Shown: positions 5,691 through 38,594 of the stretch, piece after piece
How the letters are laid out: every line of letters starts with the position of its first letter
Numbering within the stretch: position 1 is the stretch's first letter
From: Zanthoxylum bungeanum
Taxonomy: Eukaryota; Streptophyta; Magnoliopsida; Sapindales; Rutaceae
DNA: 64,000 nt
Reading direction: 5' to 3'
Assembly: GCA_019454045.1 (NCBI GenBank)
Contig: SKCR01032789.1
Location: 277,923-341,922 of the forward strand
Notes under the pieces: generated by a model
What the model was told of the DNA's origin: nothing
The model's input: the letters and a program-made list of their open reading frames with translations, nothing else
The model's database searches: none
Translations under genes and position numbers: made by a program

Positions 5691-8319
5691 TCGTGAAGAA
5701 AGAAATCATTAAATGGTTGGATGTTGGCATCATCTACCCCATCTCAGACAGTAGTTGGGTGAGTCCTATGCAGTGTATACCAAAGAAAATAGGAATTAAT
5801 GTAGTCCAAATGAAAAGAACAAGATGATTCCAACAAGAACGGTGACTGAATGGAGAGTATGCATGGACTACCGAAAGCTGAACAAAGCAACAAGGAAAGA
5901 TCATTTTCCGCTGCCATTTATTGATCAGATGCTAGACAGACTAGCGGGACATGAGTTCTATTACTTTCTGGACGGATACTCGGGGTACAATCAGATTGCC
6001 ATCGCCCCAGAAGATCAGGAGAAAACTACATTTACATGTCTGTATGGTACTTTTTCTTTCCGCAGAATGCCATTTGGACTATGTAATGCTCCTGCCATAT
6101 TCCAACGTTGGATGATGGCCATCTTCTCAGACATGCTAGAACAGAGTATGGAGGTTTTTATGGATGACTTCTCTGTGTTTGGAGATTCTTTTGACCACTG
6201 CTTGCAAAATCTGGAACATGTGTTACAAAGGTGCGAAATACAAACTTGGTACTCAATTGGGAGAAATGTCATTTTATGGTGCATGAAGGCATTGTTCTTG
6301 GACACCGGATCTCACAAAAGGGAATCGAGGTAGACAAAGCAAAGATCGAGATAATTGAAAAACTACCTCCACCCACATCTGTCAAAGGGATTCGAAGTTT
6401 TCTCGGACATGCTGGCTTTTACTGGAGATTTATCAAATACTTCTCAAAAATTGCAAAACCTCATTGCAATCTTCTGGAGAAAGATGTGCCTTTCAATTTC
6501 ACCAAAGAATGCAGGAAGCCTTTGAGATCCTAAAACAGAAGCTGGTCTATGCCACCATCATAGTAGCACCAGATTGGACCCTTCCATTTGAGGTGATGTG
6601 CGATGCTAGTGATTTTGCTATAGGAGCAGTTTTGGGACAACGCAAAGCAAAGATCTTCCATGCTATTTACTATTCCAGCAGAACTCTGAATGAAGCTCAA
6701 CTCAACTACTCAACCACTGAAAATAAGTTGCTTGAAGTTATGTTCGCTTTTGACAAATTCTGATCTTATCTGATGGGTCCCAAAGTGGTGGTCTACACAA
6801 ATCATTCAGCAATCAAGTATTTGATCGCAAAGAAAGATGCCAAACCTATTGACTCGTTGGATACTTCTTCTGCAAGAATTTGACGTGGAGATCAGAGACA
6901 GGAAATGGACAGAAAACCAAGTGGCATATCATTTATCGAGGCTAGAGAATGGAGATACAGCTGGCAAAGAACTAACAATCAAAGAAACTTTTCCAGATGA
7001 ACAGCTGTTTGCCATGAAACAGCAGGAAGTCCCCTGGTATGCTGACTATGTAAACTACATAGTGTCAGGAAAATGGCCGTTGGAATTGACAACTCATCAA
7101 AGGAAGAAATTCTTCAAAGAAGTCAAGCACTATGTCTGGGATGAACCGTACCTGTTCAAACGCTGTGCTATTCAATTACTGAGACGATGTGTTCCACAGG
7201 AGGAGGTCAACAGTATTCTGCAACATTGTCATTCATCACCATATGACGGACACTTCAGCAGGAATAAAACTGCAGCCAAAGTCCTACAATCAGGTTTGTT
7301 TTGGCCCACTCTATTTAAAGATGCTTATCTGTTTGCTCTTCAATGTGACAGGTGCCAGAGAACTAGAAATATTTCTAGAAGAAATGAATGACCATTGCAA
7401 AAATTCTGGAAGTGGAGATATTTGATGTATGTGAGATTGATTTTATGGGACCCTTTGTTCCATCATTCGGAAACCTGTACATACTTGTTGCAGTGGACTA
7501 CGTCTCCAAATGGGTTGAAGTAATTCACTGTCATCCAATGATTCAAAAGTGGTGATCAAGTTCCTGAAAAAGAATATTTTCACTCGCTTCGGAACACCTC
7601 GGGCAATTATCAGCGATGGTGGCTCACATTTCTGCAACAGATACTTCGATGCACTCCTATCCAAATACGGAGTTACTCATAAGGTTGCCACAACCTATCA
7701 TCCACAATCAAACATGCAAGTTGAAGTTTCAAACAGGGAGATCAAAAGAATCTTGGAGAGAACCGTTGGATCAACAAGGAAGGACTGGTCTGAAAAACTG
7801 GATGACGCATTATGGGCCTACCGGACAGCTTACAATACACCCATTGGTATGTCCCCATATCAAATGGTGTTCGAGAAAGCATGCCATCTCCCATTTGAGC
7901 TTGAACACAAGGCGTACTGGGCACTAAAGAAGTTAAATCTTGATCCACAAGCTGCAGGAGAGAAAAGACTTCACCAACTTAATGAGTTGGAGGAATTTCG
8001 CCTACAAGCTTATGAGAATGCCAAACTGTACAAAGAGAAGCCCAAGAAATTGCATGACCGAAAAATAGTGCGCAAACAATTGGAACCAGGGCAGCAAGTG
8101 TTGTTGTACGATTCAAGGTTGAAACTTTTTCCTGGAAAGCTGAAATCAAAATGGTCAGGTCCATTTGTGATTACGCAGGTGTTACCTTACGGAGTTATTG
8201 AGATATACAATCCCAAGTCAAGCAACACATTCAAGGTCAATAGCCAGCGTGTCAAGCACTACTGGGGAGAATCATTTGAGCGACAAAAAGAAAGTGTCAC
8301 ACTTTCAGATCCAGCCTAA
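5691..8319 (+). pseudogene. Gypsy reverse transcriptase-RNase H-integrase (element A), degraded
   Basis: Pieces lie in shifting frames. Reverse transcriptase (5824-6333) has YRKLNKAT, FLDGYSGYNQI, the MPFGLCNAPA block and the catalytic FMDD box at 6157-6168. It runs on in another frame to about 6530. RNase H begins near 6540 with FEVMCDASDFAIGAVLG. The integrase zinc finger (HCHSSPYDGHF .. CDRCQR) is at about 7220-7360. The catalytic core starts near 7436 with DFMGPF in a broken frame, continues in the open frame 7549-8319 with ISDGGSHF and VEVSNREIK, and ends in a basic C-terminal domain ([15 protein letters not shown]). At least four frame breaks or stops interrupt it, so it is not translatable as one protein. 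Element B has lost nearly all of this region. Confidence 0.85.
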
Positions 8320-8700
8320 CGTTCGGGAAATCATGTCTAGCTGACGACATCAAACTTAGCGCTAGCTGGGAGGCAACCCAAGCAATTTGTGTATATATTG
8401 TGATGTGGTGTGTTTTAATTTTTGTGTGTTTAGTTTTTGCAGGTTAAAACGCATTTAGGAAGAAGAAGCTCTCGCAAATCTTCACAAGCAATTTCATTCT
8501 CTCCCTCAAAATTCTCTGATAAAGGTCTACAAAGCTCGCATGGAACAAATGAGACTTCTGACGATCCATGGTATTCCTAATGATTTCGTTGGGTAATCGA
8601 AACACGGGTCTGATTAGCAGGTGAGTATTCTGATTCTTGTAATTCTTAATTGCCTGAATTTGGAAGAAGCACCTATACAAAGAAACGTAGAGCTAAGCAA
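8320..8700 (+). other. Post-integrase leader of the cargo region (element A)
   Basis: This begins with the conserved sequence CGCTAGCTGGGAGGCAACCC that follows integrase in this retroelement group. Around 8527-8600 it holds a decayed reading frame (VYKARMEQMRLL .. GIP), related to 33072-33260 in B. A one-base loss against B near 8585 breaks it. It ends at AGCAG|GTGAGT (8616-8626), a good match to a plant splice donor and conserved in B. Confidence 0.5.
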
Positions 8701-8907
8701 ATGGGTGTTTGTTACAAATGTGCACGCTGTAATTGCAATACTCGTTGTCGTTGTTTAGGAATGGTATCTGATAATCGCGAAGATAAAATTAAATTCATTA
8801 GGGATGGCTTGAGTAAAGAGTCTTTAGATGATATATCTTTGACTCTTGAGACGAATCCCAGTGGATATGTTCATAAAGCCATTCGCAAAATACATACACA
8901 ATTCTGA
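8701..8907 (+). CDS. Small cysteine-rich hypothetical protein (element A cargo)
   Basis: I do not recognise this protein. From the first ATG it encodes 68 residues. The open frame extends upstream to 8650 without an ATG and includes a basic KKRRAK run. The N-terminus holds seven cysteines in about 20 residues (MGVCYKCARCNCNTRCRC), as in a zinc-binding knuckle or a small disulphide-rich domain. The rest is polar (DNREDKIKFIRDGLSKESLDDI). The spacing does not fit the retroviral CCHC knuckle. It lies between integrase and the LOG gene. The same sequence is recognisable in B (32792-33046 minus), where short indels shift the frame. It could be a second captured host fragment, an accessory or envelope-like remnant, or an exon of a spliced cargo transcript. 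Confidence 0.45.
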   Translation: MGVCYKCARCNCNTRCRCLGMVSDNREDKIKFIRDGLSKESLDDISLTLETNPSGYVHKAIRKIHTQF

Positions 8908-9192
8908 AAAGAAAGACAACAGTTAAGTCTCGGGAATCTGACTCTAAAAGACCTTGTTTGCCAATTTATAAGAAAATTGGATGGGAAGCTTGTCCCTGAC
9001 GCATAGACGTCATTCAAGCTGTTACATTATTGTAAATATTATATCTCTTTATCTTTTCTTAATAATTGTGATTTGTTTTGTTATTTTCTCCGACAGGATC
9101 CATGCTACTTTTTGACTTTCACGATTTACTATTTTGCCACTAATCGTCCTTTGGAAGATACATGTGCTATTATTACTCACCCTTTTCAGGTT

Positions 9193-9200
9193 CTATAAAT
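9193..9200 (+). promoter_or_regulatory. Candidate TATA box before the LOG pseudogene
   Basis: CTATAAAT lies 58 bp upstream of the LOG ATG. The same motif sits at a similar distance in element B (32488-32495). It could be a core promoter brought along with the captured gene, or chance in AT-rich DNA. The overlapping CCCTTTTCAG|G at about 9181-9189 also looks like a splice acceptor. Confidence 0.35.
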
Positions 9201-9257
9201 TCAACTCATCATTGCACTCTTGAAGGCATCCAGAGCTAAAAAAAGAAACACAAAAAT

Positions 9258-9910
9258 ATGGAAGCCACTTCAAGAAGACGAGTTGTAAACATTTGTGTGT
9301 TTTGTGGTACCAATGTTGGTGTTAAACCAGAATACATAGCAGCAACACAGGAATTGGGTCGAGTCTTAGCTGAAAGGAATATGCACCTAGTATATGGAGG
9401 AGGCAATCTTGGACTAATGGGGATCATTTCAAAGGCTGTACATGATGGAGGGAGTCAAGTCTTGGGAATCATCCCAAAACCCTTGGCAGAGGCGAATTTG
9501 ATAGGACCATCAAATGGCGAGGAACTAATCGTGCCAGGTATGTCTGAACGACTGGTAGAGATGATTAACCATGCTGATGCTTTTATTGCTTTGCCATGAG
9601 GCTTGGGCACGATGGAAGAAATTTTTACAGTACTATCTTGGGCAAACTTGAACATATACCAGAAACCGCTTGGACTGTACAATATTGATGGATTTATGAT
9701 TTTCTTTGTGTGTTTCTTGATGATGCCCGGAGAAATGGGTTCGTGTCAAAGCCTGTAAAAGAACTCCTCTTTACTGCCAGAACTGCCCCAGATTTAATTG
9801 ACCAAATCTTAGCCTTTGAACCTCAAATTGACCCCATTCTTTCCAAGATAAATTGGTCCGATGATGATCGTGGTAAGATGCGTCGAATAAATCTGAATCT
9901 TAACATTTAA
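9258..9910 (+). pseudogene. LOG-like: LOG-type cytokinin riboside 5'-monophosphate phosphoribohydrolase, broken
   Basis: LOG enzymes release active cytokinin bases from their riboside monophosphates in the cytosol or nucleus. The sequence starts MEATSRRRVVNICVFCG and has the nucleotide-binding YGGGNLGLMG stretch and SERLVEMI. An in-frame TGA (9597-9599) replaces the first glycine of the signature PGGxGTxxE, leaving P-stop-GLGTMEE. About 100 bp later one base is lost near 9695 relative to B, shifting the frame. The C-terminal part is open again over 9710-9910, ending in KMRRINLNLNI. No intron is present, whereas plant LOG genes normally have several, so capture through RNA is likely. It lies in the same orientation as the retroelement, between integrase and polypurine tract. 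It can only make a truncated 113-residue product without the active-site motif. Confidence 0.9.
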
Positions 9911-11240
9911 CTTTTCATTTAGATGTAGAATTTCACCTAACCAGGTACGGTTTTCTAAACTCTTCTTCTACTGTTTAAGATATTGGGGACAATTTCTCAT
10001 TTAGGTTTGTGAGAGGAGAATAGTTAAATTGTATCTTTTTCTTATTGTTTTATTTTTGGTCAAAATTTTTCGAAAAAGCCAAAAAAATTGAAAATTTTTA
10101 CAAAAACCAAAAAAATATTTTGTGTTTTTATTTGATTAATCAGGTGAAATTGGTGTGAGATAGCCGAGTAAGGAATTTCCACTCCTGAGACGTATCTCAA
10201 CCTATTTCAGAACAAATTAATTTTTGTTTATTTCATTTTAAATTATTTAATTTGTGAATTCTCCATAATACTAACTAAAATGAATCTTCATATGCTCAGT
10301 TGACAAGTATTATCAACATACATGGTAACATACAGACATGAGCTGTAATTGAAAAGTTTGTAATATTCAGTGCTCTAGTATAATTGGAGGAAACATCTTA
10401 TAAAAAACGATGGGATAAAAAAAAAAAAAAAAATGTATAACAAAAAAAACAAAAAAACGTCTGAGATACGGGTTATTAAGTCTGTAAGGGTGTCTTAACA
10501 CCTAGTGCCCTAAAACCAACTGGTTTGGGAGTCACTGGCTCAAAGCTCGTTACATGGATCAAAGATGTTGCCAAAAAATATATATATCTGAAGTCTGAGT
10601 AATTAAGTCCGTAGGGGTGTCTTAACACCTAGTGCCCTAAAGCCAACTGGTTTGGGAGTCACTGACTCAAAACTCTCTACGTAGATGGAAGATATTGTAT
10701 GTAAATAAAAATCAAAAATCAAAAATCAAAGTAAAAAATCAGAAAAGTCAGAAAAATTATTTCATTGCTTAAAAAAAAGGTGTGAAATCTGATATAACTT
10801 CAGGACAAAAATATTACTTTCTTCTCAACTGCACTTGTGACTATTGTGGGAAAAAATGAGTTGATTAATATTTTGTTGACTGTGTATATGGAGAATGGTA
10901 AAAATAATCGGAGAATTTACTTATTCGGTAATTTAGAATGAAACAAAACAACTATTGACTTGGATTAGATGTTTCATCTGTTTAGTCACTAACTTCTTTA
11001 TTCTATTTTCTCTTGTCTTTTTGCTTTTGTGTGCATTAGTTTTATTATCTTTTTACTTTTGTAAAATGTTTGTGGGTATCGTTGCTGTAAGCCTTCACGA
11101 GACTACAACTCGTCCACTAGAGACACCTAGGGGTTTAAAGGCTTGTTGCATACGCTAAATGTAACTGTGATCCCTACGAAAGTGGCTTAGTTTAATTTTA
11201 TTTTTATTTTGTTGCTTTGCTCGAGGACTAGCAAAATGTT
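9911..11240 (+). other. 3' untranslated region of element A
   Basis: AT-rich, with no convincing gene. It contains A-runs near 10419-10460, the duplicated segment listed separately and a conserved CACGAGACTACAACTCG..CACTAG stretch near 11096-11120, which has a counterpart in B near 30250-30275. The 67-codon ORF at 10955-11158 is hydrophobic but has no recognised family and is probably chance. Confidence 0.6.
10459..10697 (+). repeat. Two direct ~105-bp repeats in the 3' region of A
   Basis: Copies begin with GTCTGAG at 10459 and 10593. Each holds two small inverted repeats, GGTGT-CTTA-ACACC and AAACCA-AC-TGGTTT (the second less perfect in copy 2). The same pair is kept in element B at 30668-30916, so the duplication predates the split of the two elements. 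Confidence 0.85.
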
Positions 11241-11255
11241 AGGTTTGGGGGGGTG
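11241..11255 (+). other. Polypurine tract of element A
   Basis: AGGTTTGGGGGGGTG lies directly before the LTR start TGATGAGTGG. The equivalent in B (30114-30126) has the same core. Confidence 0.85.
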
Positions 11256-13282
11256 TGATGAGTGGAAAATATATCAATATTTACCGCCTCTTTTACTTAA
11301 TATTTTGTTTAGTTTCTCGGGTTTGATGAACGTATTGATATGTTTTAGTTTATTTTGCAGATAAAATAATATTGGGACTCAATGAAATCATTTAGGACAA
11401 AATGTGGGTCAAATAAGGGCAAATATTGGACTTGACATATTAATTTTGGAGATTGGAAACTTGAAAGGACTTTTTAACGAAATGCAGTTTTGGAAATTTC
11501 AATTTTGCGCATCTGTTGTATTTTGGGCATAACGTTTTACTCCGATATCGGATTGAGCTGATTCAAGTTCCAGTTTAAAGAAGACTCAAAGATCTACAAC
11601 TTTTAAAAATACAATAATTTCGAATTCTGAAGATTTCATGACCGAAATTGATGAAACATCCGTAAGTGTGTTATGTGTAATTATTAAAGTCATTTTAAAA
11701 GCAAAAAATAAATTAATAAATTAATAAATAAATAATAAAAATTATCAAATCATCACCAAACATGATAGCAATTAGTGGAGCAATTAATAATGGATTTTCT
11801 GGAGTAATTAGTGGAGCAATTAATAATGGATTTGGTGGAGAATTTGATGGATGATTTAAAGAAGGCAAATTTTTGCCTACAAATACCAAGCTATTTCATT
11901 TGTAAATTCATACTTCTTTTCTTTACTAAGAAGATTGTATCTTGTTTGTTTATTTACAGCTTTCAGTAATTAATTTCCGCTTTCACACTTTTTTTTCTTT
12001 ACTTTTCAGTTTTTACTTTTCGCAATTTACTTTTACGTATAATACTTTCCTTTCTTTACTTTTCAGTTTTTACTTTTCAAGCAATGAGGAGGTAACTCCC
12101 CCTTGCTGGGGTAAAAGGTAAAGCTTTTATTATTGCTATTTAGATTAATCTCCCATAATTATAATATATAAACTATTTAAAACCTGACTTAATGAGGATA
12201 CCGTCTGGTTGGTCGGTTGGTAATTAATTATTAATTTGACTTAATCATGATACCGTCTATATGGCTGGTTGGTAATTATCACGCAAAGTTAATATATTAT
12301 ATTAAGAGAGACATCTAAAATAGTAGTAATAAAAGTTGATCATCTAACCCCCAGCATCTTCTTTTATTGTACTTTTACTTTATTTACTTTTCAGCAATTT
12401 ACTTTTCAGCAATTTACTTTTACTTTATTTAATTTTTAATTTTTACTTTTACTTTATTTATTTTTTACTTTTACTTTATTTACTTTTCAGTTTCTAATTT
12501 TCAGCAATTTACTTTATGTCTTTTATTTTATTTAAGTTCTTACTACCCGTAATATGTGTCGTAACTAAGCCAATTATCTAGGTTATGATGAAATCCAATA
12601 TCACCGGTTTATAAGGGGTTAAATTACATTTTGGGTAATATAAAAGTTTATTTATTGAGCCTTAATCCTAATACTTTTTATTAACTGACCATTAATAAAA
12701 TTGAACTGGTAAACTTAAAATGAACTTGGAAAAGATATTTTAGGTTAAAGATCTTAGACTCAATAGCTCACGATCTTCCTTGAGGATAGATAACCCTTTA
12801 ATAGATTTCCTTACAGGATAGGAATATACCTGTCGGGCGGGGGTAGCCATAATTGGAACTTAATCTTAATGAATTCAGATAACTTGGTTAACATAGGGAT
12901 ATGATTATTGGGTTATACTGGGTATTTGTATTTGACCATTTAAAGAGGCTTTTACATAATTTTGTGTTCCAGGATAATAAATCAATATATTACACAAACG
13001 TAAAATAACCACTTCATCTTTTAAAAGATGTTGGAAGGATTCACAACCCTGGATAGTTTTATAAATTTGAATTTTCTTCAATTTACTTTCAAGCAATTTT
13101 ATTTACTTGTTTTAATTTTAAAGTCATCACTCAATCAAACAATCAATCAATTAGATACTTGTAAACATTTAACTTCATAGATTGATAACAAAAGGTTTTG
13201 AGTCGTCGTGGGATCGATACTTTTTATACTACTTGAACGATACGTGCGCTTGCGTTATACGAGTGTGATTTCGCACCGGTCA
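11256..13282 (+). mobile_element. 3' LTR of element A
   Basis: The 2027-bp LTR starts TGATGAGTG and ends GCACCGGTCA, parallel to B's LTRs (TGATGAGTGAT .. CGCCGGTCA). It includes repeats of GGAGCAATTAATAATGGAT (about 11770-11850), of TTTACTTTTCAGCAATT-type units (about 12000-12100 and 12360-12520) and of TACCGTCT..GGTTGGTAATTA (12185-12275). The terminal ~60 bp (ACGTGCGCTTGCGTT .. TGTGATT) is well conserved with B. It is followed by ACAAG, the presumed target duplication. Confidence 0.85.
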
Positions 13283-26192: not shown

Positions 26193-28253
26193 TGTTGGGG
26201 CGAATGTGGGACCTCTAGGGTCGGATAGGTGTCCCGTGCAGCGAAAGTGGGTCTAATCCGTGGATATCAAGATGGGTGTATTTTTAAATTATTTTAATGA
26301 AAATTATATTCCTTTGCGAGTCTGTAGGGAAAAATGGGGACTAAATCGGAATTCAGAAACTCCGGAACAGAGAAAATTGAAGTTTCAGCGCTCATGAGCA
26401 TCAGCTCTCGGCACGTCTTGACGCGCATGCTTGGATGCCGCAACGCTTAATTTGGGAGAGTTAGCATCGCGCAATGCAAAAGTTAGCATCGCGACTCTCA
26501 ATTTGTGAGAGCTCGGTGTCGCGCCGCGCAAGGTTAGCGTCGCGACGCCAGAAGGTTTGAAAGCTCAGTGTCGCGACGCTGACCTGTGTAAAATATTGAC
26601 AGAGAGCATTTTAACCTTCAAAACAATTCTAAACACTTCTAATTTTCTCTAAACACTTCAATACACCTAAAATCCAATTTTAACATCAAAACCAACATCA
26701 ACACATGTTATAAAACAAATATACATGTATTCTAAATACATATATGCATTTCTTTGAATCAAAACATAAACCAAAATAGAATCGCATAATGAAATGACTC
26801 ATGAATAATTCTAGGCCACTCAAAGGTGGTCAAGTGATTCTAGAATGGTATTCATAGCTCAAAGCTATCATCTAGAGTTCCAAACTCTAATTTATTATTT
26901 CATGTCCAACATGAACATATTTGACCCCAATTACAAGCATATTGTGTGTATGCTCCCAAAATATCCATACACAATTCATTAGCCTAATTTCTACTTCAAG
27001 TTATGTTATTATGTATCCAATACATAATACATCACTATATGCTCATTAATGAAAACAACTCACTAATGAAAACATAACTTTAGAGAAGATCAAAATCATC
27101 TAGTAAGCTTGATTCCAATATACAATCTTCTTTTCCTTTTTGAAATGTTGTGGAGAACTTCCAAAGTTAGCAAGCTTTACTCCAAGATCTCATTTTAACT
27201 CCAATGCTAGCAAGCTTCATTCTAAAATCTAATCTTAATTTCTCCTTGTTGAAATGTTGTAGAGAACTTATAAATCTTCTCTAAACACTTCCCTTAGGCT
27301 AATATTTCTAATTCTTGCTTGTTTTAGCTTTCACAAGCTTAACTTTCTTAGACTCAAGCTTAATTAAAACATTGCTTAAGCTTGCCTTTTTATAGCAAAA
27401 CTTATGTAATTTTTCATTAATAAAAGTTCTAATCAAATTTTTTATGTAAACTTAATCCAATTATCTAAATATCTATAATTAGGTGTGACTAATCATTTTT
27501 GTCTACCACTTTGATTTAATCCAATTAAATCAAGATAAAGATTAGCAAATGGATTAGTTCATTGTCTACCACTTTGATTTAATCTAATTAAATCAAGTCC
27601 AATACACCTATAATTACATATTTATAATTACCATATATCCTTAAATGGTACATATATTCATGAAATTACAATAAAGCCCTTGTGTGAATTTAGATTAACC
27701 CAATTAATCCAATTATGTCAATGTAAATAGTAAATATTATCAAACAACATTTAATTATTTTAGTTGATAATTATAATATCAAATATTATTTATTATCAAA
27801 AATTATCAGCAACTCAAGTGCTCAACGATTACATTTCATATTATGGACTCTCTAAGTCCAGACACGTTCGTCATATAAACCTAGCTTATATGTACGCAAT
27901 TCGGCCACATCCAAATTTGAGAAAAACATGAATGACCTTTCTGAACTATACAACTCGAGGTCATCATATATGTTTAACAATCTTTCTATAGTAGGCTATC
28001 CGAGTTGTGCTTAGGAAATATAGAATACACCGTCAAGTTTTCGATACGCATATCTCATGTCGATATGTCCACGGTTCTTTACAACTATTCTGAAACCAGT
28101 TCTGATATATGCGATCCACCTTAGGTGATCGGCTTTGGCTAAAGTCTTAAGAATCGTGACTTACTCACATGAATACCTAAACCCCTTATGGTACACATAC
28201 GGGCTGACAGATCCTATCTTGATACGCACTTGATTAACGAGTGCATCGGTCAA

Positions 28254-30113
28254 TGACCGGCGTAATCACACACGTTAAACGCAAGCGCACGTATCGTTCA
28301 AGTAGTATAAAAAGATATCGATCCCACGAGGACTTATTACTTATTCTATTAATTTTATGAGGTTAAGTGATTACTGATATCTAACAAGTTGTTTGATTAA
28401 AATGACGATGATTCTAAATTTAAAACAAGTAAAAGAATTGAGAGTAGATTAATGAGAATTAAAACTATCTAGGGTTGTGAATTCTCCAATACTTATTAAA
28501 TGATGAAGTAGTTAAATCATAGTTGGGTAAAATATTGAGTTATTAATCTGGAATACTAAATTATGTAAAAGCCTCTTTCGAACGATCATTTACAAATACC
28601 TAGAATAATCAAATTGAACCATATGTCTATGTCAATTAAATTACCTAGATTCATTAAGATTGAATTCCAATTATGATTACCCCTACCCCGCCCAACAGGT
28701 ATATTCCTATCCTGTAAGGAAATCTATTAAAGGTTTATCTATCCTTAAAGAAGATCGTGGGTTGTTAGTCTGTGGTCTTTAACTTAAAATCTCTATGTCT
28801 AGTTCATTTTAAGTTTTATTTAGTCAATTTTATTAATGGCCAGTTAATAAAAAGCATTAAGATTATGACTCAACAAATAACTCTTTAATTACCCAAACTA
28901 TAATCTAACCCTTTTTTAAACCAGTGATATTAGATTTTATCACAACCCTAGATATTTAACTTAGTTACAATACATAGTTAAAGCTGATAAAAACTTAAAA
29001 GACATAAAATTAAATTGCTGAAAAGTAATTGTAATAATGAATTGCAATAAAAAGAAATGAAATGCTAAGATAAAAGGAAATAACTTCTACTATATACTAT
29101 TTAGATATCTCCCATAAAATAATAATATATATATACTTGTGATATTTTAAACCAACCGTCCGGAATGGCGGTATCCTGATTAAGTCAAATTCAAATATAC
29201 AATCCATAAGGCGGAACAGAAATATAAATTTAAACCAACCGACCTAGAATGGCGGTATCCTCATTAAGTCAGGTTTAACCAGTTTAAATTGAATAACCAA
29301 CCGACCTAGAATGGCGGTATCTTTTTATTAATTCAGATTTTAAATAGTTTATATATATATTTTTAAGGGAGATTAATCTAAATAGTAAAAGTAAAAGAAT
29401 TACCTTATTACCTCAGCATAGAGACGTTACATACAGTTACCCCTCATGGATGGATAGAATTACTACTACAAAGCGTAAATAAAACTGAATAAAAGAAGAA
29501 AATATGAAGAACTCTCAATTTATTTATAAGGATTTCAGAGGAAGAGGTACATTTGAAACTAAAAATTCGAAATCTATTTATAGGCAAAAAAATCTAATTT
29601 TTTATATTATTTTTCTGATTTTTATTATTTTATTATTTTCTGATTTTTTTTTTTTTTTTTTTTATTATTTTTTTCTGGATCGCTGAATTTTCGACACGTG
29701 GCATGGTGTGCTAAAAAAGACGGCTCGTTGAATCTTTGACATGTGGCATGGTGGTGCAATTACCAAAATACCCTCGGTGTCGGGACGCCCAAAATTACCA
29801 AAATACCCTTTTTGCCAAATTTCACATTTTGCTCCAAATCACCTCCAGAATATCTTGAAACTTTATTTTGGTGTCGGAATGCCCAAAATTACCAAAATAC
29901 CGTGTCGGGATGCCCAAAATTACCAAAATACCCTTTTTGCCAATTTTCACCAAATTTCACAGTTTTGCTCCAAATCACCTCCAAAATGTCCTGAATCTTT
30001 ATTTATAGCTGCAAAATAACACAAAACACATCAAAATATTCACAAAACTCAAGAAACTATACAAAATATCAAGTTAAATGAGTGGGAAATAGTGATACAT
30101 TTATCACTCATCA
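28254..30113 (-). mobile_element. 3' LTR of element B
   Basis: 1860 bp; on the minus strand it starts TGATGAGTGAT (30113) and ends CGCCGGTCA (28254). It is close to a copy of 36145-38001. It holds several GACCTAGAATGGCGGTAT repeats (29150-29330) and the CCAAAATACC repeats listed next. Open frames in it (29741-30019 and others) arise from these repeats and are not genes. Confidence 0.92.
29760..29945. repeat. Tandem CCCAAAATTACCAAAATACC units in the LTR
   Basis: Three to four irregular copies of GTCGG(G/A)(A/T)GCCC + AAAATTACCAAAATACC occur within U3 (plus-strand view). The same array lies in the other LTR at about 37650-37835. Confidence 0.8.
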
Positions 30114-30126
30114 CACCCCCAAACCT
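30114..30126 (-). other. Polypurine tract of element B
   Basis: On the minus strand AGGTTTGGGGGTG directly precedes the 3' LTR start TGATGAG. It is the same as in element A apart from two G residues. Confidence 0.85.
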
Positions 30127-31787
30127 AACATTTTGCTAGTCCTCGAGCAAAATAAAATAACATAATAAAATTTTAACTAAGCCACTTTCGTATGGATCAC
30201 GATTGCATTTAGCATATGCAACAAGCCTTTAAACCCCTAGGTGTCCCTAGTGGACGAGTTGTAGTCTCGTGAGGTTTTACAGCAATGATACCCACAAACA
30301 TTTTTAAAAAGTAAAAAGATAGTGAAACTAATGCACACAAAAGCAAAAAGACAAGCGAAAGAGAATAAAGATGTTAGTGACTAATCAGGTGAAATTTCTA
30401 ATCCAAGTTACTAGATGTTTTGTTTCATTCTAAATTACTGAATAAGTAAATTCTCCGATTATTTTTACCATTCTTCATATATCACAGCCAACAAAATATT
30501 AAACAACTCATTTTTGCCCACAACGGTCATAAGTGCAGTTGATAAGAGAGTAATATTTTTGTTCTAAAGTTTTATCAGAATTCACATCTTTTTATAGTAA
30601 TGGAATAAATTTTCTAATTTTTCTGATTTTTTTTCTTTGATTTTTTCTCTATTTTTTATTTATATACAATATCTTCCATCTATGTAGCGAGCTTTAGGTC
30701 GGTGACTCCCAAACCAGTTGGCTTTAGGGCATCAGGTGTTAAGACACCTCTAAGGACTTAATTACTCAGACTTCAGATATATATACATATATATAAATTT
30801 TTCATCATTTTTTATCCATGTAACGAGCTTTGGGCCAATGACTCCCAAACCAGTTGGTTTTAGGGCACTAAGTATTAAAATACCCTTACAGACTTAATAA
30901 CTCGGATCTCAGATGTTTTTTTTTTTTTTTTTTTTTTTTTTTTATTCCATCACTATTTTTTTAGATGTTTCCTCCAAATGAACTAGAGTACTGGATATTA
31001 CAAACTTTTCAATTTTAGCTCATGTCTGTATGTTACCATGTATGTTGATAATATCTGCTAACTAAGTATATGAAGATTCATTTTAGTCAGTTTAATGGAG
31101 AATTTACAGATTAAATAATTCAAAAGTGAATAAACAAAAATTAACTTGTTTTGAATTAGGTTTGAAATACGTCTCAGGAGTGGAAATTCCTTACACAGCT
31201 ATTTCTTACCAATTTCATCTTTTTAGTCAACATAACAACTACATATTTCTACTAGTCATAAAACTATAATTTACATTTTTTTTTCAAAGGCTCTCGCTGA
31301 CGAAGGATTTTCACAACTAGGACTCCCCACTCAAGGGTTCAAGCGACCAAGTGAACGCACCTTTTTTATACCTTATGGTACGTGCCAACGAATTTATGGT
31401 GTGTGACTAACTGTCGAATGGACTTCCCGTTGTAGATTCCCCAGAGGGAAGGTGGAGCGAGGCTCACTTAAATACCCAAGCCCCTTAGGCTCTTATCGCT
31501 TGTTGTCAGGAATAAACAACGAGTCCTCCAAACTAGTCTGTCACAACACGCTACAAGTGAATGATTATCTAGGTGCCTTCACAGCTTTTCCTTATAAAAA
31601 GGTAGTGAGTGAAGGAAGACACCAAACCATCACCTAGCTTTAAATATGCCCTTTGTTTTTTTTATTATTATTTTTTAATTTTTTTTGTATTTTTCGAAAA
31701 ATTTTGGACTAAAACCAAAAACTAAAAATCAAGATAAAAGGAGAATTAAGAAGATAATACCTGGTTAGCTGAAACTCTACAAGAAAT
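30127..31787 (-). other. 3' untranslated region of element B
   Basis: AT-rich, with long T-runs (30916-30943) and no credible gene. It is co-linear with 9911-11240 of element A. The section 31285-31640, which has a 61-codon plus-strand ORF at 31452-31637, has no clear counterpart in A and may be an added fragment. Confidence 0.55.
30668..30916 (-). repeat. Two direct ~105-bp repeats in the 3' region of B
   Basis: These are the counterparts of 10459-10697 in element A. Both copies have CCCAAACCAGTTGG and (less conserved) GGTGTTAAGACACC-type hairpins. Confidence 0.85.
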
Positions 31788-32444
31788 TTAAAGGTTAAGA
31801 TCCAGATTAATCCGACGCTTCTTACCACGATCATCATCATCGGACCATTTTATCTTTGAAATGATAGGGTCAACTTGTGGTTCATAGGCTATAAGTTGGT
31901 CTAGTAGATCTGGAGCAGACCTGGCAGTAAAGAGGAGTTCTTTCATAGGTTTTGACACGAACCCATTTCTCCGAGCATCATCAAGAAACACACAAAGAAA
32001 ATCATAAAACCCATCAACGTTGAGCAGTCCAAGCGGTTTCTGGTGTATGTTCAGGTTCGCCCAAGATAGTACTATAAAAATTTCCTCCAATGTACCCAAG
32101 CCACCTGGCAAAGCAATAAAAGCATCAGAACGGTTAATCATTTCTACCAGTCGTTCAGACATACCTGGCACGATCAGTTCCTCTCCGTTTGATGATCCAA
32201 TAAGATTTGACTCTGCCAAAGGTTTTGGGATGATTCCCAAAACATGACTGCCTTCTTCTTGTACGGCCTTTGAAACGATCCCCATTAGTCCAAGATTGCC
32301 TCCGCCATATATTAAATGCATATTCCTTGCTGCTAAGACTCGACCCAATTCCTGTGCTGCTTCTATGTATTGTGGTTTAGTACCAACAGTACTACCGCAA
32401 AACACACAAATATTTTCAACTCGTCTTCTTGAAGTGGCTTCCAT
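31788..32444 (-). CDS. LOG-like: Intact LOG-type cytokinin riboside 5'-monophosphate phosphoribohydrolase carried by a retrotransposon
   Basis: It encodes 218 residues without stop, frameshift or intron. I chose the ATG at 32444 (MEATSRRRVENIC) because element A starts at the same codon. The open frame runs 28 codons further upstream without an ATG. LOG enzymes hydrolyse cytokinin nucleoside monophosphates to free base and ribose 5-phosphate, the direct activation step. Visible motifs are CVFCG (13-17), YGGGNLGLMG (46-55), SERLVEM with R98, and the family signature PGGLGTLEE (113-121) with its glutamates. KPLGLLNVDGFYD and an FVSKP segment follow, as in plant LOGs, and the length is usual for the family. 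The C-terminus is basic and ends RRINLDLNL. It lies between the integrase tail and the 3' LTR, in the element's orientation. It may be expressed from the LTR or its own TATA; activity is inferred. Confidence 0.93.
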   Translation of the reverse strand: MEATSRRRVENICVFCGSTVGTKPQYIEAAQELGRVLAARNMHLIYGGGNLGLMGIVSKAVQEEGSHVLGIIPKPLAESNLIGSSNGEELIVPGMSERLVEMINRSDAFIALPGGLGTLEEIFIVLSWANLNIHQKPLGLLNVDGFYDFLCVFLDDARRNGFVSKPMKELLFTARSAPDLLDQLIAYEPQVDPIISKIKWSDDDDRGKKRRINLDLNL

Positions 32445-32487
32445 TTTTTTACTATGGATGTCTTCAAAAGTGCAATGATGAGTTGAA

Positions 32488-32495
32488 TTTATAGT
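32488..32495 (-). promoter_or_regulatory. Candidate TATA box before LOG (element B)
   Basis: On the minus strand CTATAAAT lies about 44 bp upstream of the ATG, as in element A. Conservation is consistent with a retained core promoter. The adjoining TTTTTCAG|G (minus, ending 32498) could instead be a splice acceptor. Confidence 0.35.
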
Positions 32496-32791
32496 ACCTG
32501 AAAAAGGGTGAGTAAAATAATAGCACAAGTATCTTCCGAAGGACGATTAGTAGCAAAATAATAAAATAGATCGTGATAGTCAACAAGATCTGGATCCTGT
32601 CGGAGAAAACAATAAAACAAATCAATTACTAGAAAAAGACAAAGAGATATAATATGTACAAGAAAAGTAACGGCTTGATTGACATCTATGCGTCAGGAAC
32701 AAGCTTCCCATCCAATTTTCTTATAAATTGGCAAACAGGGTCTTTTTGAGTCAGATTCCCTAGACTTAATTGTTGTCTTTCTTTTTGAATT

Positions 32792-33046
32792 GTGTGTGTA
32801 ATTTGTGAAAGGCTATGTGAACATATCCACTGGGATGCGTCTCAAGAGTCGAAGATATCATCTAAAGACTCCTTACTCAAGCCATCCCTAATGAATTTAA
32901 TTTTATCTTCACACGATTATCAGACACCATTCCTAAAGAACGACAACGAGTATTGCAATTCCACCACGCGCACATTTGTAACAAACACCTATCTGCTTAG
33001 CTCTACGTTTCTTTGCATAGGTGCTGCTTCTTCCAAAACCAGGTAA
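32792..33046 (-). pseudogene. Cysteine-rich small ORF of the cargo region, frameshifted (element B)
   Basis: Aligned with 8650-8907 of element A, the sequence keeps GVCYKCAR and CNTRCR in different frames. Two 2-base gains (in the cysteine run and after DNR) and a 2-base loss near SLDDI disrupt it. It has no known function. The decay here contrasts with the intact LOG gene 350 bp downstream. Confidence 0.6.
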
Positions 33047-33071
33047 ATAAGAACTACAAGTCTCAGAAAAC

Positions 33072-33260
33072 TCACCTGCTAGACGGATAGCGTGCTTCGA
33101 TTACCCAACAAATATCAGTAGGAATACCTTTGATCATTAGTAGTCTCATTCGTTCCAAGCGAGCTTTGTAAACTTTCATCAGAGATTTTTGAGGGAAGAA
33201 GGAAATTGCTTGTGAAGACTTGCGATAGCTTCTTCCATTTTGAAATTTCTTTATCTGCAA
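33072..33260 (-). CDS. Hypothetical short ORF upstream of the cargo, possible exon
   Basis: An open frame of about 62 codons lacks an upstream ATG; the internal methionine LMKVYKARLERMRLL is the first good start. The product is basic and unrecognised. Its stop codon TGA overlaps a splice-donor-like CAG|GTGAGT at 33078-33070, which is also conserved in A at 8618-8626. If that donor is used, the frame would continue into a downstream exon. A related but frame-broken version is in A at about 8527-8600. Weak evidence as a gene. Confidence 0.3.
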   Translation of the reverse strand: MQIKKFQNGRSYRKSSQAISFFPQKSLMKVYKARLERMRLLMIKGIPTDICWVIEARYPSSR

Positions 33261-33344
33261 AAACTAAACACACAAAATAAAATCACACCAAAAATTGCAA
33301 TATATACTAAATTTGCATGGGTTGCCTCCCTGCTAGCGCTAAGT

Positions 33345-34607
33345 TTAATGGTCGTCAGCTAGACGTGACTTTTCGAACGTTATGCTGAATCTGAAAGTGT
33401 GACACTTTCTTTTTTGTCGCTCCAACGGTTCTCCCCAATAGTGCTTGACACGTCTGTTTTTAACCTTGAAAATTTTGTTGGAGTCAGGATCATGTATCTC
33501 AACGGCTCTATCTGGTAAAACTTTGGTGATCACAAATGGACCTGACCACCGTGATTTTGGCTTCCAAGGGAAGAATTTCCCCCTTGATTTGTTTAACAGT
33601 ACCTTCTGCCCTGGTTCTAGTTGTATGCGCACTAACTTCTCATCATGTATTTTCTTTGCCTTTTCTTTGTATAATTTGGCATCCTCAAAAGGTTGTTTAT
33701 GAAATTCCTCCCATTCATTGAGCTGGTGGATCTTTCTCTCTCTTGTTGCTTGTTGTGCAAGAATTGGCTCTTTCAGTACAAAAGACGCTTTATCTTCAGG
33801 CTCCACAGGCAATTGACATGTTTTAAGTTTATCAGTAGAACTTTGCATTGCTTTGGAGTTCTGAATGGTACTGTGTATCACATCAAGTCTGAAACATTCC
33901 TCCTTCTTTTCATCGTCTGGGAAATTCATGGCTTTGAAAACATTGAATGTTACTTCCTGGTCTTGTACCCTCATGGTTAATTCTCCTTTTTGTACATCAA
34001 TAATGGTTCGACCTGTAGCCAAGAATGGTCTTCCAAGGATGATTGGCACGTCTGCGTCTTCCTCCATATCAAGGACAATAAAATCTGCTGGGAAAATGAA
34101 TTTGTCAACTTTTACTAACACATTTTCAACAACTCCTCTTGGAAATGCGAGCGTTCGATCAGCAAGTTGCAATGAAACTGAAGTAGGCATTGCTTCTCCA
34201 ATCTGCAGTTTCCTGAATATAGAAAAGGGCATTAAGTTAACACTTGCACCTAAATCACATAAAGCCTTACCAAAATTATGTTCTCCTATGATGCAAGGAA
34301 TGGTGAAACTTCCAGGATCTTTCAACTTTGGGGGAAGTTTTCTCTGAATGATGGCGCTGCATTCTTCTGATAATGCTACTGTCTCATAATCTCCCAATCT
34401 CCGTTTTCGTGAAAGAATGTCTTTCATGAATTTAGTATAACTGGGCATTTGTTCCAAAGCTTCTGCAAATGGAATGTTGATGTGCAGCTTTTTGAAAACC
34501 TCCAAGAATCGAGCAAAATGCTTGTCCAGTTTACTTTTCTGAAGGCGTTGAGGAAAAGGTGGAGGTGGAGTGATCTGTTCTTTTTCCTTTGCTTCTTTTT
34601 CCTCCAT
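33345..34607 (-). CDS. Gypsy protease fused in frame to integrase C-terminal domain (element B)
   Basis: 420 residues from ATG at 34607. Residues 1-60 are the linker and conserved LEVFKKLHINIPFAEAL segment. The aspartic protease box DLGASVNLM is at 118-126, with PIILGRPFLATGR at 188-200. At about residue 285 the sequence jumps to the end of integrase (KIHQLNEWEEF, then WSGPFVIT near 354-361 and VKHYWGEPLERQK near 387-399). Compared with A, about 2.6 kb holding reverse transcriptase, RNase H and the integrase zinc finger and core are deleted without breaking the frame. In full elements this is part of Gag-Pol. The fusion could still cleave Gag, while the other enzymes would have to come in trans. 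It is separated from gag by probable frameshifts at about 34620-34750. Confidence 0.88.
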   Translation of the reverse strand: MEEKEAKEKEQITPPPPFPQRLQKSKLDKHFARFLEVFKKLHINIPFAEALEQMPSYTKFMKDILSRKRRLGDYETVALSEECSAIIQRKLPPKLKDPGSFTIPCIIGEHNFGKALCDLGASVNLMPFSIFRKLQIGEAMPTSVSLQLADRTLAFPRGVVENVLVKVDKFIFPADFIVLDMEEDADVPIILGRPFLATGRTIIDVQKGELTMRVQDQEVTFNVFKAMNFPDDEKKEECFRLDVIHSTIQNSKAMQSSTDKLKTCQLPVEPEDKASFVLKEPILAQQATRERKIHQLNEWEEFHKQPFEDAKLYKEKAKKIHDEKLVRIQLEPGQKVLLNKSRGKFFPWKPKSRWSGPFVITKVLPDRAVEIHDPDSNKIFKVKNRRVKHYWGEPLERQKRKCHTFRFSITFEKSRLADDH

Positions 34608-34699
34608 CTGTTTCTCTGCTTCTTTTGGAACTTCCTCTCATTGTTGTTTTGGCTCCAACATCTTTGTTGATTTCAGTACCACTTTTTAACATGATGGCA

Positions 34700-36007
34700 T
34701 TACATTGCTCTTTCCCATGTTCCTTGGATTTGGTTCTGTGTTGCTGGGAGGGTACCTGGCGGTCTGTAACTCTGAGCATTGGCCAGTTGTCCAATTTGAT
34801 TCTCTAGTGCTTTGATGGAAGCAGATTGGCTTTGAAACATAGCATCGTACTTTTTTAACTGAGCCAACACTTCTGCTATTCCTGGTTCATTTGTCTGCTC
34901 CTGGCCTTTGTTATGTTGCTGAAATCCAGGTGGTGGATAGTTCTGTTGTTGGCCTGAATTGTTGCTCCATGAAAAATTGGGATGATTCCTCCACCCTGGG
35001 TTGTAGGTGTTGGAATATGGATTGTTCCCCTGTCTGTTGAAATTGTTGACATAATTCACCGTTTCTTCATGTTGATTTTGTTCTTTTGCTTCTCCATATG
35101 GTGAATTTGTGGTTCCAATGTTACTTTGCTTGCCTAGAGTCTCCATGAATTTGCATATCTGATCCAGTTTGGTACTGACTGCTGAATTGGCTCCAACCTC
35201 ATAAATTCCAGCAATTCGTTGAATCATGCTCCTTTCTGTTGGCCACAATGAATTGTTGTTGGCCATTTCTTCAATTAGGTCCCAAGCTTGATCTTCTCCT
35301 TTTGCCATTAATGCTCCTCCGGCAGCAGCATCAATTGTGGTTCTCATAATTCCAGAAAGTCCATTATAGAATGTTTGGACTTGAAGCCATTTTGGAATCT
35401 CATGGTGAGGACATTTCCTGAGCAAATCTTTGTACCTTTCCCAAGCTTCGTAGAGAGTTTCTGATTCTTGTTGTACAAAGGATGTGATGTCATTCCTCAA
35501 CTTTCCAGTTCTGGCTGGTGGAAAGTACTTTGCAAGAAATTTGGTGGCTAAAGCGTTCCAAGTGGTGATGGAACCAGCTGGTAGTGAATGTAGCCAAGCT
35601 TTACCTCTGTCCTTCAAAGAGTATGGAAAAACACGAAGTCGCATTGCTTCTTCAGCTTCTCGGTTGTAATTGAAAGTACCGCAAACTTCCAGGAAGTTGC
35701 TGATGTGGGCATTAGGATCTTCAGTTGCATTCCCTCCAAACTGTACTGATTGTTGTATCATCTGAATGCAAGTTTTGATGTCACCTGCATTTGCTGGTAA
35801 GGGAGGAAGTACAATACATGAAATGAGTCTGTCAACCACCGGAATTGTTCTGTCTCGAATAGGAATTGGTGGTGCAACTTGCAAAGGTTCAGGTTCCATG
35901 TTAATAATTGCTTCTTGGCCTTGTCGCCTTTCTCTTCTCAATTGTCTGATGGTTCTTTCAATTTCTGGGTCAAGCGGTTGTAGTTCAAAGCTTCTGGTTC
36001 GTCTCAT
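34700..36007 (-). CDS. Gypsy Gag polyprotein (element B)
   Basis: About 435 residues from MRRTRSFELQPLD. The open frame continues a few codons upstream without an ATG. The retrotransposon gag domain spans roughly residues 90-220, with HISNFLEVCGTFN, the RVFPYSLKDRGKAWL segment and LAKYFPPARTGKLRND. An asparagine- and glutamine-rich part follows (about 300-380) and then a coiled-coil-like KKYDAMFQSQSASIKALENQ segment, usual in Athila/Tat Gag. Gag forms the cytoplasmic particle that packages element RNA. The frame ends at 34700, where related sequence continues in another frame (34531-34794), so a frameshift probably separates it from protease. A CAG| acceptor-like site lies just before the start. 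Confidence 0.85.
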   Translation of the reverse strand: MRRTRSFELQPLDPEIERTIRQLRRERRQGQEAIINMEPEPLQVAPPIPIRDRTIPVVDRLISCIVLPPLPANAGDIKTCIQMIQQSVQFGGNATEDPNAHISNFLEVCGTFNYNREAEEAMRLRVFPYSLKDRGKAWLHSLPAGSITTWNALATKFLAKYFPPARTGKLRNDITSFVQQESETLYEAWERYKDLLRKCPHHEIPKWLQVQTFYNGLSGIMRTTIDAAAGGALMAKGEDQAWDLIEEMANNNSLWPTERSMIQRIAGIYEVGANSAVSTKLDQICKFMETLGKQSNIGTTNSPYGEAKEQNQHEETVNYVNNFNRQGNNPYSNTYNPGWRNHPNFSWSNNSGQQQNYPPPGFQQHNKGQEQTNEPGIAEVLAQLKKYDAMFQSQSASIKALENQIGQLANAQSYRPPGTLPATQNQIQGTWERAM

Positions 36008-36120
36008 TAAGATTGTGATAACCTGAAACACAATAAAACGAAAGTAATAAGAAAAAAGGAAAAATTAGACACAAGTAACGTATCTAACCTTTAAACTAAT
36101 AGTAAAAGATAAAGAAGTCC

Positions 36121-36138
36121 CCCCCGGCAACGGCGCCA
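36121..36138 (-). other. Primer-binding site of element B (tRNA-Asp)
   Basis: The plus strand reads CCCCCGGCAACGGCGCCA, the 3' end of plant tRNA-Asp including CCA. It lies six bases inside the 5' LTR end. This primer is characteristic of Athila-type elements. Confidence 0.85.
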
Positions 36139-36144
36139 AAAACT

Positions 36145-38001
36145 TGACCGGCGTAATCACACACGTTAAACGCAAGCGCACGTATCGTTCAAGTAGTATA
36201 AAAAGATATCGATCCCACGAGGACTTATTACCTATTCTATTAATTTTATGAGGTTAAGTGATTACTGATATCTAACAAGTTGTTTGATTAAAATGACGAT
36301 GATTCTAAATTTAAAACAAGTAAAAGAATTGAGAGTAGATTAATGAGAATTAAAACTATCTAGGGTTGTGAATTCTCCAATACTTATTAAATGATGAAGT
36401 AGTTAAATCATAGTTGGGTAAAATATTGAGTTATTAATCTGGAATACTAAATATGTAAAAGCCTCTTTCGAACGATCATTTACAAATACCTAGAATAATC
36501 AAATTGAACCATATGTCTATGTCAATTAAATTACCTAGATTCATTAAGATTGAATTCCAATTATGATTACCCCCGCCCAACAGGTATATTCCTATCCTGT
36601 AAGGAAATCTATTAAAGGTTTATCTATCCTTAAAGAAGATCGTGGGTTGTTAAGTCGGTGGTCTTTAACTTAAAATCTCTATGTCTAGTTCATTTTAAGT
36701 TTTATTTAGTCAATTTTATTAATGGCCAGTTAATAAAAAGCATTAAGATTATGACTCAACAAATAACTCTTTAATTACCCAAACTATAATCTAACCCTTT
36801 TTTAAACCATGATATTAGATTTTATCACAACCCTAGATATTTACTTAGTTACAATACATAGTTAAAGCTGATAAAAACTTAAAAGACATAAAATTAAATT
36901 GCTGAAAAGTAATTGTAGAATAATGAATTGCAATAAAAAGAAATGAAATGCTAAGATAAAGGAATAACTTCTACTATATACTATTTAGATATCTCCCATA
37001 AAATAATAATAATATATATACTTGTGATATTAAACCAACCGTCGAGAATGGCGGTATCTGATTAAGTCAAATTCAAATATACCAGCCATAAGGCGGAACA
37101 GAAATATAAATTTAAAAAACCGACCTAGAATGGCGGTACCTCATTATGGCGGTAAACTCAAACTTTATTAAAAACCATTGAAAAGAAATAACTTACCGAT
37201 TTCCTAGAATGGCGGTATCTTTTTATTAATTCAAGATTTTAAATAGTTTATATATTATATTTTAAGGGAGATTAATCTAATAGTAAAAGTAAAAGAATTA
37301 CCTTATTACCACCTCAGCATAGAGACGTTACCACCCCTCATGGATTGATAGAATTACTACTACAAAGCGTAAATAAAACTGAATAAAAGAAGAAAATATG
37401 AAGAACTCTCAATTTATTTATAAGGATTTCAGAGGAAGAGGTACATTTGAAACTAAAAATTCGAAATCTATTTATAGGCAAAAAAATCTAATTTTTTATT
37501 ATTATTTTTCTGATTTTTATTATTTTATTATTTTCTGATTTTTATTTTTTTATTATTATTTTTTCTGGATCGCTGAATTTTCGACACGTGGCATGGTGTG
37601 CTAAAAAAGACGGCTCGTTGAATCTTTGACATGTGGCATGGTGGTGCAATTACCAAAATACCCTCGGTGTCGGGACGCCCAAAATTACCAAAATACCCTT
37701 TTTGCCAAATTTCACAATTTTGCTCCAAATCACCTCCAGAATATCTTGAAACTTTATTTTGGTGTCGGAATGCCCAAAATTACCAAAATAACCGTGTCGG
37801 ATGCCCAAATTACCAAAATACCCTTTTTGCCAATTTTCACCAAATTTCACAGTTTTGCTCCAAATCACCTCCAAAATGTCCTGAATCTTTATTTAGCTGC
37901 AAAATAACACAAAACACATCAAAATATTCACAAAACTCAAGAAACTATACAAAATATCAAGTTAAATGAGTGAGAAATAGTGATACATTTATCACTCATC
38001 A
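36145..38001 (-). mobile_element. 5' LTR of element B
   Basis: 1857 bp, starting TGATGAGTGAT at 38001 and ending CGGTCA at 36145 on the minus strand. It is nearly the same as 28254-30113 apart from small indels (for example near 36570 and 37100-37200). GTCAA at 38002-38006 completes the target duplication. Confidence 0.92.
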
Positions 38002-38594
38002 GTCAACACCCAACGAACATCTAGAGCCTATACCATGAAAGATTTTTAACATACATGGCATATAAGTGTGAATGATATCACACAAAATTAATGTTATACT
38101 ATAGTCAAAGGATCACTATGATACTCGACTCGAGGAATTCCTATTGACATGGTGTGTACTTCCAATTATTAGGAATCACATGTAAGTCATTCAGTATTCG
38201 CTTCAACGAATACCCACATGTCTATACGAGCTTCTAAAGCTCATGTTACATCAGGTTAAACTATTGGAACTTCAATTCCAATATACGACATATGCTAGTC
38301 TTCTAAGTTATAAGAATTCGACCGTATTCCAAAACCAATGACTATGAATATTTACTTTAAGAATAATTTATAATAGTAATTTTATCCCAATGTCAGACCA
38401 CCTAGTGTCCAGTATTACTACAATACTATTCTAAAGTCGATGTCATTCTTAGCATATTTATATATCAATCTAATATGCATAATGACATTACCATTAATAA
38501 GGTTGAAATGAAAAAATTATTATTTTATTAATAAATAATAAATATAATGTACAATACATTATTCAGATTAGTGCTCCAAGCGTCAACTCCAACA

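Follow-up and report, generated by a model that had tools for sequence, protein, structure and literature searches.

A LONELY GUY-family gene carried by a large family of Ty3/gypsy retrotransposons in Zanthoxylum bungeanum

A YgdH (LONELY GUY, LOG, family) domain is listed in gypsy consensuses of Citrus sinensis and C. clementina and, under less strict filtering, of Populus trichocarpa, in a listing that the source states to agree with Steinbauerova 2011 (PMC9289625). Because of this entry, LOG-bearing gypsy elements are a known kind, and the elements described here resemble those of citrus and poplar in having a LOG-family domain in a plant gypsy-type context (PMC9289625). The published listing gives the domain only (PMC9289625); intact genes, copy number, selection, minimal elements and a partner gene come from the present analysis, and what is added is the scale, the selection pattern, the minimal elements and the viral type of the partner gene. 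Gypsy elements of orchids with an ORF for an ALKBH5-like m6A demethylase likewise kept an extra enzyme ORF through rounds of replication; the orchid enzyme differs from LOG, and its activity was shown in vitro (PMC9289625), whereas that of the LOG described here is a prediction. In the parts of the literature covered by our search for LOG or carlavirus-type genes in retrotransposons, LOG-family domains were found only in PMC9289625, and the partner gene was not found. The word cytokinin is absent from the main text of two reviews, one of extra ORFs in plant LTR retrotransposons (PMC7264820) and one of gene capture by plant transposable elements (PMC13317346).

The env-like Athila elements, or endogenous plant retroviruses, share with the present elements the gypsy gene order and an extra ORF between integrase and the 3' LTR, a likeness drawn from gene order. 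Only 16% of Athila elements are reported to have ATHILA ORF-1 (PMC6317226). This domain is not among the Pfam matches of the scanned frames of our two elements, whose extra genes encode a LOG enzyme and a cysteine-rich nucleic-acid-binding protein (CRP) and no env-like protein.

Carlavirus-type NABPs act in nucleic-acid binding and silencing suppression. CRP shares their domains (PF01623, PF05515) and in the Z. bungeanum genome is borne by LTR retrotransposons. We propose, with a probability of roughly 0.55, that LOG serves a large Ty3/gypsy family as an accessory gene, that it originated from spliced RNA, and that it is selected on propagating elements as an enzyme favouring dividing cells.

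Two LOG-bearing elements in the window

The window, a stretch of 64,000 nucleotides of the Z. bungeanum genome, contains two related elements, termed A and B (Table 1). Element B has the two LTRs, target-site duplication, primer-binding-site-like and polypurine stretches and gag gene of an LTR retrotransposon. Reverse transcriptase, RNase H and the integrase core are absent from B, which departs from the autonomous gypsy order of protease, reverse transcriptase, RNase H and integrase, and the element cannot supply its own reverse transcriptase or integrase. Its LTRs are 95.6% identical by BLAST, where gaps are counted, and 97.4% identical over 1,830 ungapped columns, with a K80 divergence of 0.027. 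At substitution rates of 1.3e-8 or 7e-9 per site and year, this places the insertion about 1.0–1.9 million years ago, and the recent mobility and young LTRs proposed in the earlier note hold. The GTCAA duplication is exact, as that note had read it, and the joined flanks of B match another repeat copy of the window (58241–58654) in one piece (80.7%, 414 columns), which represents an empty site.

Table 1 Positions of the LOG-bearing elements A and B and their parts in the window
Feature	Position	Strand	Basis
Element A, 5'-truncated relative of B: pol pieces, broken CRP, broken LOG, 3' LTR	4515..13282	+	homology
A reverse transcriptase piece (RVT_1)	5800..6330	+	Pfam
A integrase region: H2C2 and rve matches, then tail	6825..8319	+	Pfam
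A CRP gene, open piece (PF01623; PF05515 slightly under cut-off)	8650..8904	+	Pfam
A LOG copy, one in-frame stop and one frameshift	9258..9910	+	comparison with LOG-B
A 3' LTR	11256..13282	+	LTR comparison
Element B, non-autonomous Ty3/gypsy LTR retrotransposon with LOG	28254..38001	-	LTR comparison, target-site duplication
Target-site duplication GTCAA, two copies	28249..28253 and 38002..38006	.	sequence
B 3' LTR	28254..30113	-	LTR comparison
B polypurine tract adjoining 3' LTR	30114..30125	-	sequence
B cargo gene LOG, intact intronless frame of 218 codons	31788..32444	-	profile, structure-sequence and fold matches
Acceptor-like site upstream of LOG	32485..32506	-	core TTTTCAG/GT in 9/9 copies aligned from three types of element; putative function
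B CRP gene, broken	32686..33239	-	DNA homology to A 8457-9009; ends read from the sequence
B protease fused in frame to integrase tail	33345..34607	-	assigned by eye and from homology to A; frame gives no Pfam match
B gag frame (PF03732)	34700..36031	-	Pfam
B primer-binding-site-like stretch, tggcgccgttgccg in element sense	36125..36138	-	sequence, candidate; recurs in locus L021
B 5' LTR	36145..38001	-	LTR comparison

The LOG gene of B (LOG-B) occupies the env-like position between the integrase tail and the 3' LTR and runs from ATG to stop in the sense of the element, encoding 218 residues with the PGGLGTLEE motif at residues 113–121. An intact, intronless LOG frame with this signature and placement had been claimed in the earlier note, and profile and structure comparisons bear it out. 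LOG-B matches Pfam PF03641 (E 4.8e-35) and NCBIfam TIGR00730 (164.6 bits; cut-off 96.35), which identifies a LOG-family domain. Against the NCBIfam equivalog NF058542, LOG-B scores 118.2 bits (cut-off 300), and Populus LOGL10 likewise falls under this cut-off with 122.7 bits. The nearest solved structures by sequence are Arabidopsis 2a33 (E 6.6e-59) and 1ydh. The predicted structure has a mean pLDDT of 86.9, and its top Foldseek match is again 2a33 (2a33_B, TM-score 0.95 by target and 0.76 by query).

Element A carries a broken LOG at the same place in the element. The dN/dS between LOG-A and LOG-B is 0.26 (bootstrap 0.16–0.43), compared with 0.16 for the protease and 0.19 for the integrase tail. 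The two elements have not diverged evenly along their length: K80 amounts to 0.30 in the integrase tail, 0.18 in the protease, 0.20 from LOG to the 3' LTR and 0.23 in the part of the LTR compared, and to only 0.12–0.13 from the integrase stop through LOG. This unevenness suggests that the CRP-LOG block may have moved between element backbones by recombination. Elsewhere in the window, positions 18081–19157 (+) hold a frame with a BED zinc finger (PF02892) and, after it, a second open frame, which together we take to resemble a hAT-type transposon remnant.

CRP lies between integrase and LOG. The open piece in A scores 26.9 bits against Carla_C4 (cut-off 20.9) and 21.8 bits against Viral_NABP, below the cut-off of 23, and the related protein P0256 exceeds both cut-offs (22.6 versus 20.9 and 24.8 versus 23), as expected of a carlavirus-type NABP. 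We found 67 relatives, Orobanche gracilis and Striga hermonthica among their sources, and 25 of them were aligned; at an E-value of 0.01 or below, Carla_C4 is matched by 21 of these and Viral_NABP by 19. No stop interrupts CRP in 145 of its 150 best-scoring genome matches. Judged by these domains, CRP in this element family is the kind of gene that plant RNA viruses are known to have. A CAG/GTGAGT stretch upstream of the CRP zinc motif was considered as a splice donor and rejected, because in relatives it codes for conserved CRP residues. One relative (P0259), labelled Clostridioides difficile and located on a contig of 293 bases, is a member of the plant CRP family and is probably plant contamination. 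A search of viral contigs for LOG gave three pattern stretches and no relative.

Abundance, element types and origin

The genome-wide count of LOG copies that the earlier note had proposed was made across 51,709 contigs with 3,956,113,105 bases. Searching for a degenerate DNA motif that encodes GNLGLMG gave 7,045 + 6,991 = 14,036 exact matches, a number that counts places in the assembly, and the reversed pattern used as a control gave none, so the abundance is not due to chance. The usual plant LOG motif, MH(Q/E)RKAEM, has 26 matches of host type. Counts of LOG genes made in large plant genomes can thus be flooded by element copies. In a protein search, the best-scoring 150 matches cover 218/218 residues at 94–100% identity, and 148 are free of stops; this share is not counted as evidence for selection, because the matches are the best-scoring ones, and an unranked sample was used instead. 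The sample comprises the first 60 places of the motif list in contig order and presupposes an intact 20-base motif. All 60 are LOG by tblastn; 11 have complete frames and 49 are broken, with a frameshift gap in 42 and an in-frame stop in 34. Arg98 and an unbroken PGGxGTxxE are both kept in six of the 11 complete frames (L044, L054, L063, L069, L081, L088). Extrapolated from these 60 places, and if the sample is typical, the genome would contain ~2,600 complete LOG frames, ~1,400 of them with the motif and the Arg.

Twenty loci of ~8.5 kb, picked from the 150 best matches and thus by protein similarity, reveal several types of LOG-bearing element. LTR sequence of the A/B family is present at all 20. 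Reverse transcriptase, integrase, CRP, LOG and LTR follow in order at four loci (L009, L010, L011, L026), of which L009 and L010 share their flanks exactly and probably represent a single locus assembled twice; reverse transcriptase precedes integrase in these four and in A. Six loci have the arrangement of B (L012, L013, L014, L016, L017, L020), and the joint between protease and integrase tail also occurs in P0121, an ENA protein representing 10 member sequences. Because of its presence in P0121 and at these loci, we regard this arrangement as a propagated form and not as a private deletion. Nine loci (L015, L019, L021–L025, L027, L028) have LOG with no protease, reverse transcriptase, integrase or CRP detected in the stretch read, and one (L018) is nested and mixed. 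CRP is open over 186–190 residues from stop to stop at six of the 20 (L009, L010, L012, L013, L016, L017).

The LOG-only loci have an LTR on both sides in six of nine cases and on one side in three (L015, L019, L028), with a weak gag-like match in five. LOG is complete in seven and has stops in L023 and L027. The LTRs of L021 are 98.9% identical around an open LOG, but a clean 5-base duplication is missing; at L027 a CCTAC duplication is present, yet LOG contains a stop. The stretch common to LOG-only elements and B starts 157 bases before LOG and extends, with gaps, as far as the 3' LTR or close to it. All nine aligned copies have the acceptor-like core TTTTCAGGT upstream of LOG, and eight of the nine have an outer site, GACAGGATCC; these sites would fit a spliced LOG message. 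When five of the 11 complete copies of the unranked sample were read with extended flanks, all five had element context, four with an LTR ~0.9–1.3 kb downstream of LOG and one with an upstream integrase tail and CRP. LOG copies in element context, which the earlier note had also wanted counted, are therefore documented in both the best-match and the unranked set. Two further arrangements were seen: an integrase-core piece directly upstream of a complete LOG (L092, 1271–2062), a further rearranged element form, and an LTR downstream of LOG followed immediately by another primer-binding-site-like stretch (L019, 6282–8189), as in tandem elements sharing an LTR.

Two of the 26 host-type loci were read, and in each LOG matched in six separate pieces with the best query, revealing introns. 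The intron-split structure of host LOG genes points to spliced RNA as the probable source of the element LOG, whose direct donor was not found among the loci read. A 43-row tree groups LOG-A and LOG-B with P0001–P0004 in one clade (100/100), joined next by P0005. This group is nested in a clade of 21 rows, just outside of which lie Populus LOGL10 and proteins from Paulownia, Reevesia and Diplodiscus. Close LOG records are mostly short ENA contigs. Two annotated Xanthoceras sorbifolium proteins (P0008, P0016) consist of two LOG pieces around a stretch that by eye resembles a retrotransposon gag-protease linker; in these gene models, tandem LOGs may have been fused with sequence of an element.

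Active site and selection

In CgLOG, Arg99 and Glu122 are the proposed catalytic residues, Lys100 of the proposed prenyl site is also assigned to the adenine site, and alanine at the tested AMP-binding and catalytic residues, Ser19 excepted, nearly abolished activity (PMC4979012). LOG-B keeps both proposed catalytic residues (R98, E121) together with the PGG-motif residues for adenine and phosphate, that is, PGGxGTxxE is accompanied by the proposed catalytic pair. The proposed prenyl site, Met96, His97, Lys100, Glu125 and Trp129 as in AtLOG3, reads M, S, L, I and W in LOG-B, so that two of five residues are kept. Populus LOGL10 has the same Ser and Leu, which therefore came largely with the donor clade. 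The catalytic Arg is replaced by Gln in eight copies of the sample of 60, including L075, and in six of 40 aligned rows. L075, with an LTR 1.3 kb downstream (read as L091), has this Gln and neighbouring residues in common with P0009, so the P0009 group is probably element-borne too. The distant LOG lineage with Gln at this position comprises L075/L091, P0009, P0011, P0012 and P0018 and is element-borne in L091.

LOG might be selected for a role other than cytokinin release: its substrate could be another nucleotide, or it could serve as a binding protein, for instance to adjust nucleotide pools or RNA metabolism during replication. We regard this as possible, if less than an even chance: three of five prenyl-site residues differ, one lineage changed Arg to Gln, and the Ser and Leu of Populus LOGL10 mean that the donor clade may be atypical. 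It is countered by the retention of Glu121 in 56 of 59 readable copies and in all 11 complete ones, and by a predicted fold that is the LOG fold. With three of five pocket residues differing, cytokinin is plausible and unproven as the product, and release of cytokinin from ribotides by the element LOG is likewise plausible. What had been described as an unusual, cytokinin-producing cargo therefore stands as a LOG cargo; a LOG domain in gypsy elements has precedent (PMC9289625), and the altered pocket weakens the claim about the product.

Selection was examined by N/S counts in the 44 of 60 sampled copies with at least 80% nucleotide identity to LOG-B over at least 500 columns, leaving out variants seen exactly twice. 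Private variants, found in a single copy, have an N:S of 240:86 = 2.79, which lies within the neutral expectations of 1.96 for transitions, 3.26 for all changes and 4.45 for transversions. Variants in three or more copies have an N:S of 114:116 = 0.98, which differs from the private class with Fisher p 8.3e-9. Transversions alone give 3.97 for private and 1.77 for shared variants (neutral 4.45; p 0.0067), so methylation-driven transitions do not explain the contrast. The codon set comprised nine of the 11 complete sample frames (L047 and L048 were missed by a start/length filter) and 18 of the 20 loci (without L023 and L027, which contain stops). Among eight complete unranked copies (28 pairs) dN/dS is 0.31, and against the distant complete copy L075, whose frame is 64.5% identical to LOG-B, it is 0.11–0.18 at dS 1.3–1.9. 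The low dN/dS of best-match element classes 1–3 is biased, because these loci were chosen by protein similarity. Together, these data suggest purifying selection while elements propagate and neutral decay after insertion, with the reservation that shared variants may include repeated hits and that the copies are related.

A passive passenger, caught once and intact merely through recent amplification, would also yield some of what is seen: B-like (class 2) copies are near-identical, with identical LOG in L012–L014, the LTRs of B are young, and most of the unranked copies are broken. Eight catalytic or motif sites in the 11 complete copies are barely above average in conservation (0.898 versus 0.868), which fits a passenger and speaks against a strong role of catalysis. 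Set against this are the N/S of shared variants, far below that of private ones, and a frame still complete in the divergent L075 at low dN/dS, and we consider a passenger improbable. Camouflage, in which small RNAs against a captured host sequence would also silence an essential host gene and so shield the element, is an idea described in a review on gene capture in plants (PMC13317346). It is a very unlikely account of LOG, given that LOG-B has just ~38–60% protein identity per exon to the two host LOG loci read, a comparison that is partial because the direct donor is not among them, and that the mutation pattern points to the protein. A host LOG split or flanked by unrelated insertions, the outcome that the earlier note named as refuting its reading, is refuted for the site of B by the LTRs, target-site duplication and empty site, as well as by LOG at the same position in A, LTR context at other loci and the introns of both host LOG loci, and no point in its support was found.

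What the elements may gain from LOG

On our preferred reading of LOG as an accessory gene, a spliced RNA copy of a plant LOG from a LOGL10-like clade would have been captured and carried in the env-like position. Selection on propagating elements would keep it functional, and copies would decay once inserted. LOG would probably be translated from a separate RNA, spliced or subgenomic, and probably act as a nucleoside-5'-monophosphate phosphoribohydrolase. The likeliest benefit would be more active cytokinin locally, or a related change in nucleotide metabolism, favouring dividing or meristematic cells, where new insertions arise and are inherited. The neighbouring CRP probably provides a nucleic-acid-binding function of viral type. 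A diffusible product alone does not explain the retention of LOG on minimal elements, because LOG could act in trans.

A bolder version, which we put forward as speculation and consider rather unlikely, is that this retrotransposon lineage manipulates the hormone state of its host, with LOG and the viral-type NABP raising cytokinin or division competence in the cell lineages where they are active, so that insertions reach the germ line. If true, LOG-only elements would be satellites that keep LOG alone and borrow other functions, and the family would in principle be a plant analogue of viruses or T-DNA with effects on host growth.

Genes captured by plant retrotransposons are commonly regarded as debris or as a source of raw material for the host. 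From its sequence pattern, the LOG of these elements looks like a gene that the elements use and not a stray passenger. A host-derived enzyme gene that bears, in the sampled copies, a signature of selection during element spread makes the element's own gain testable.
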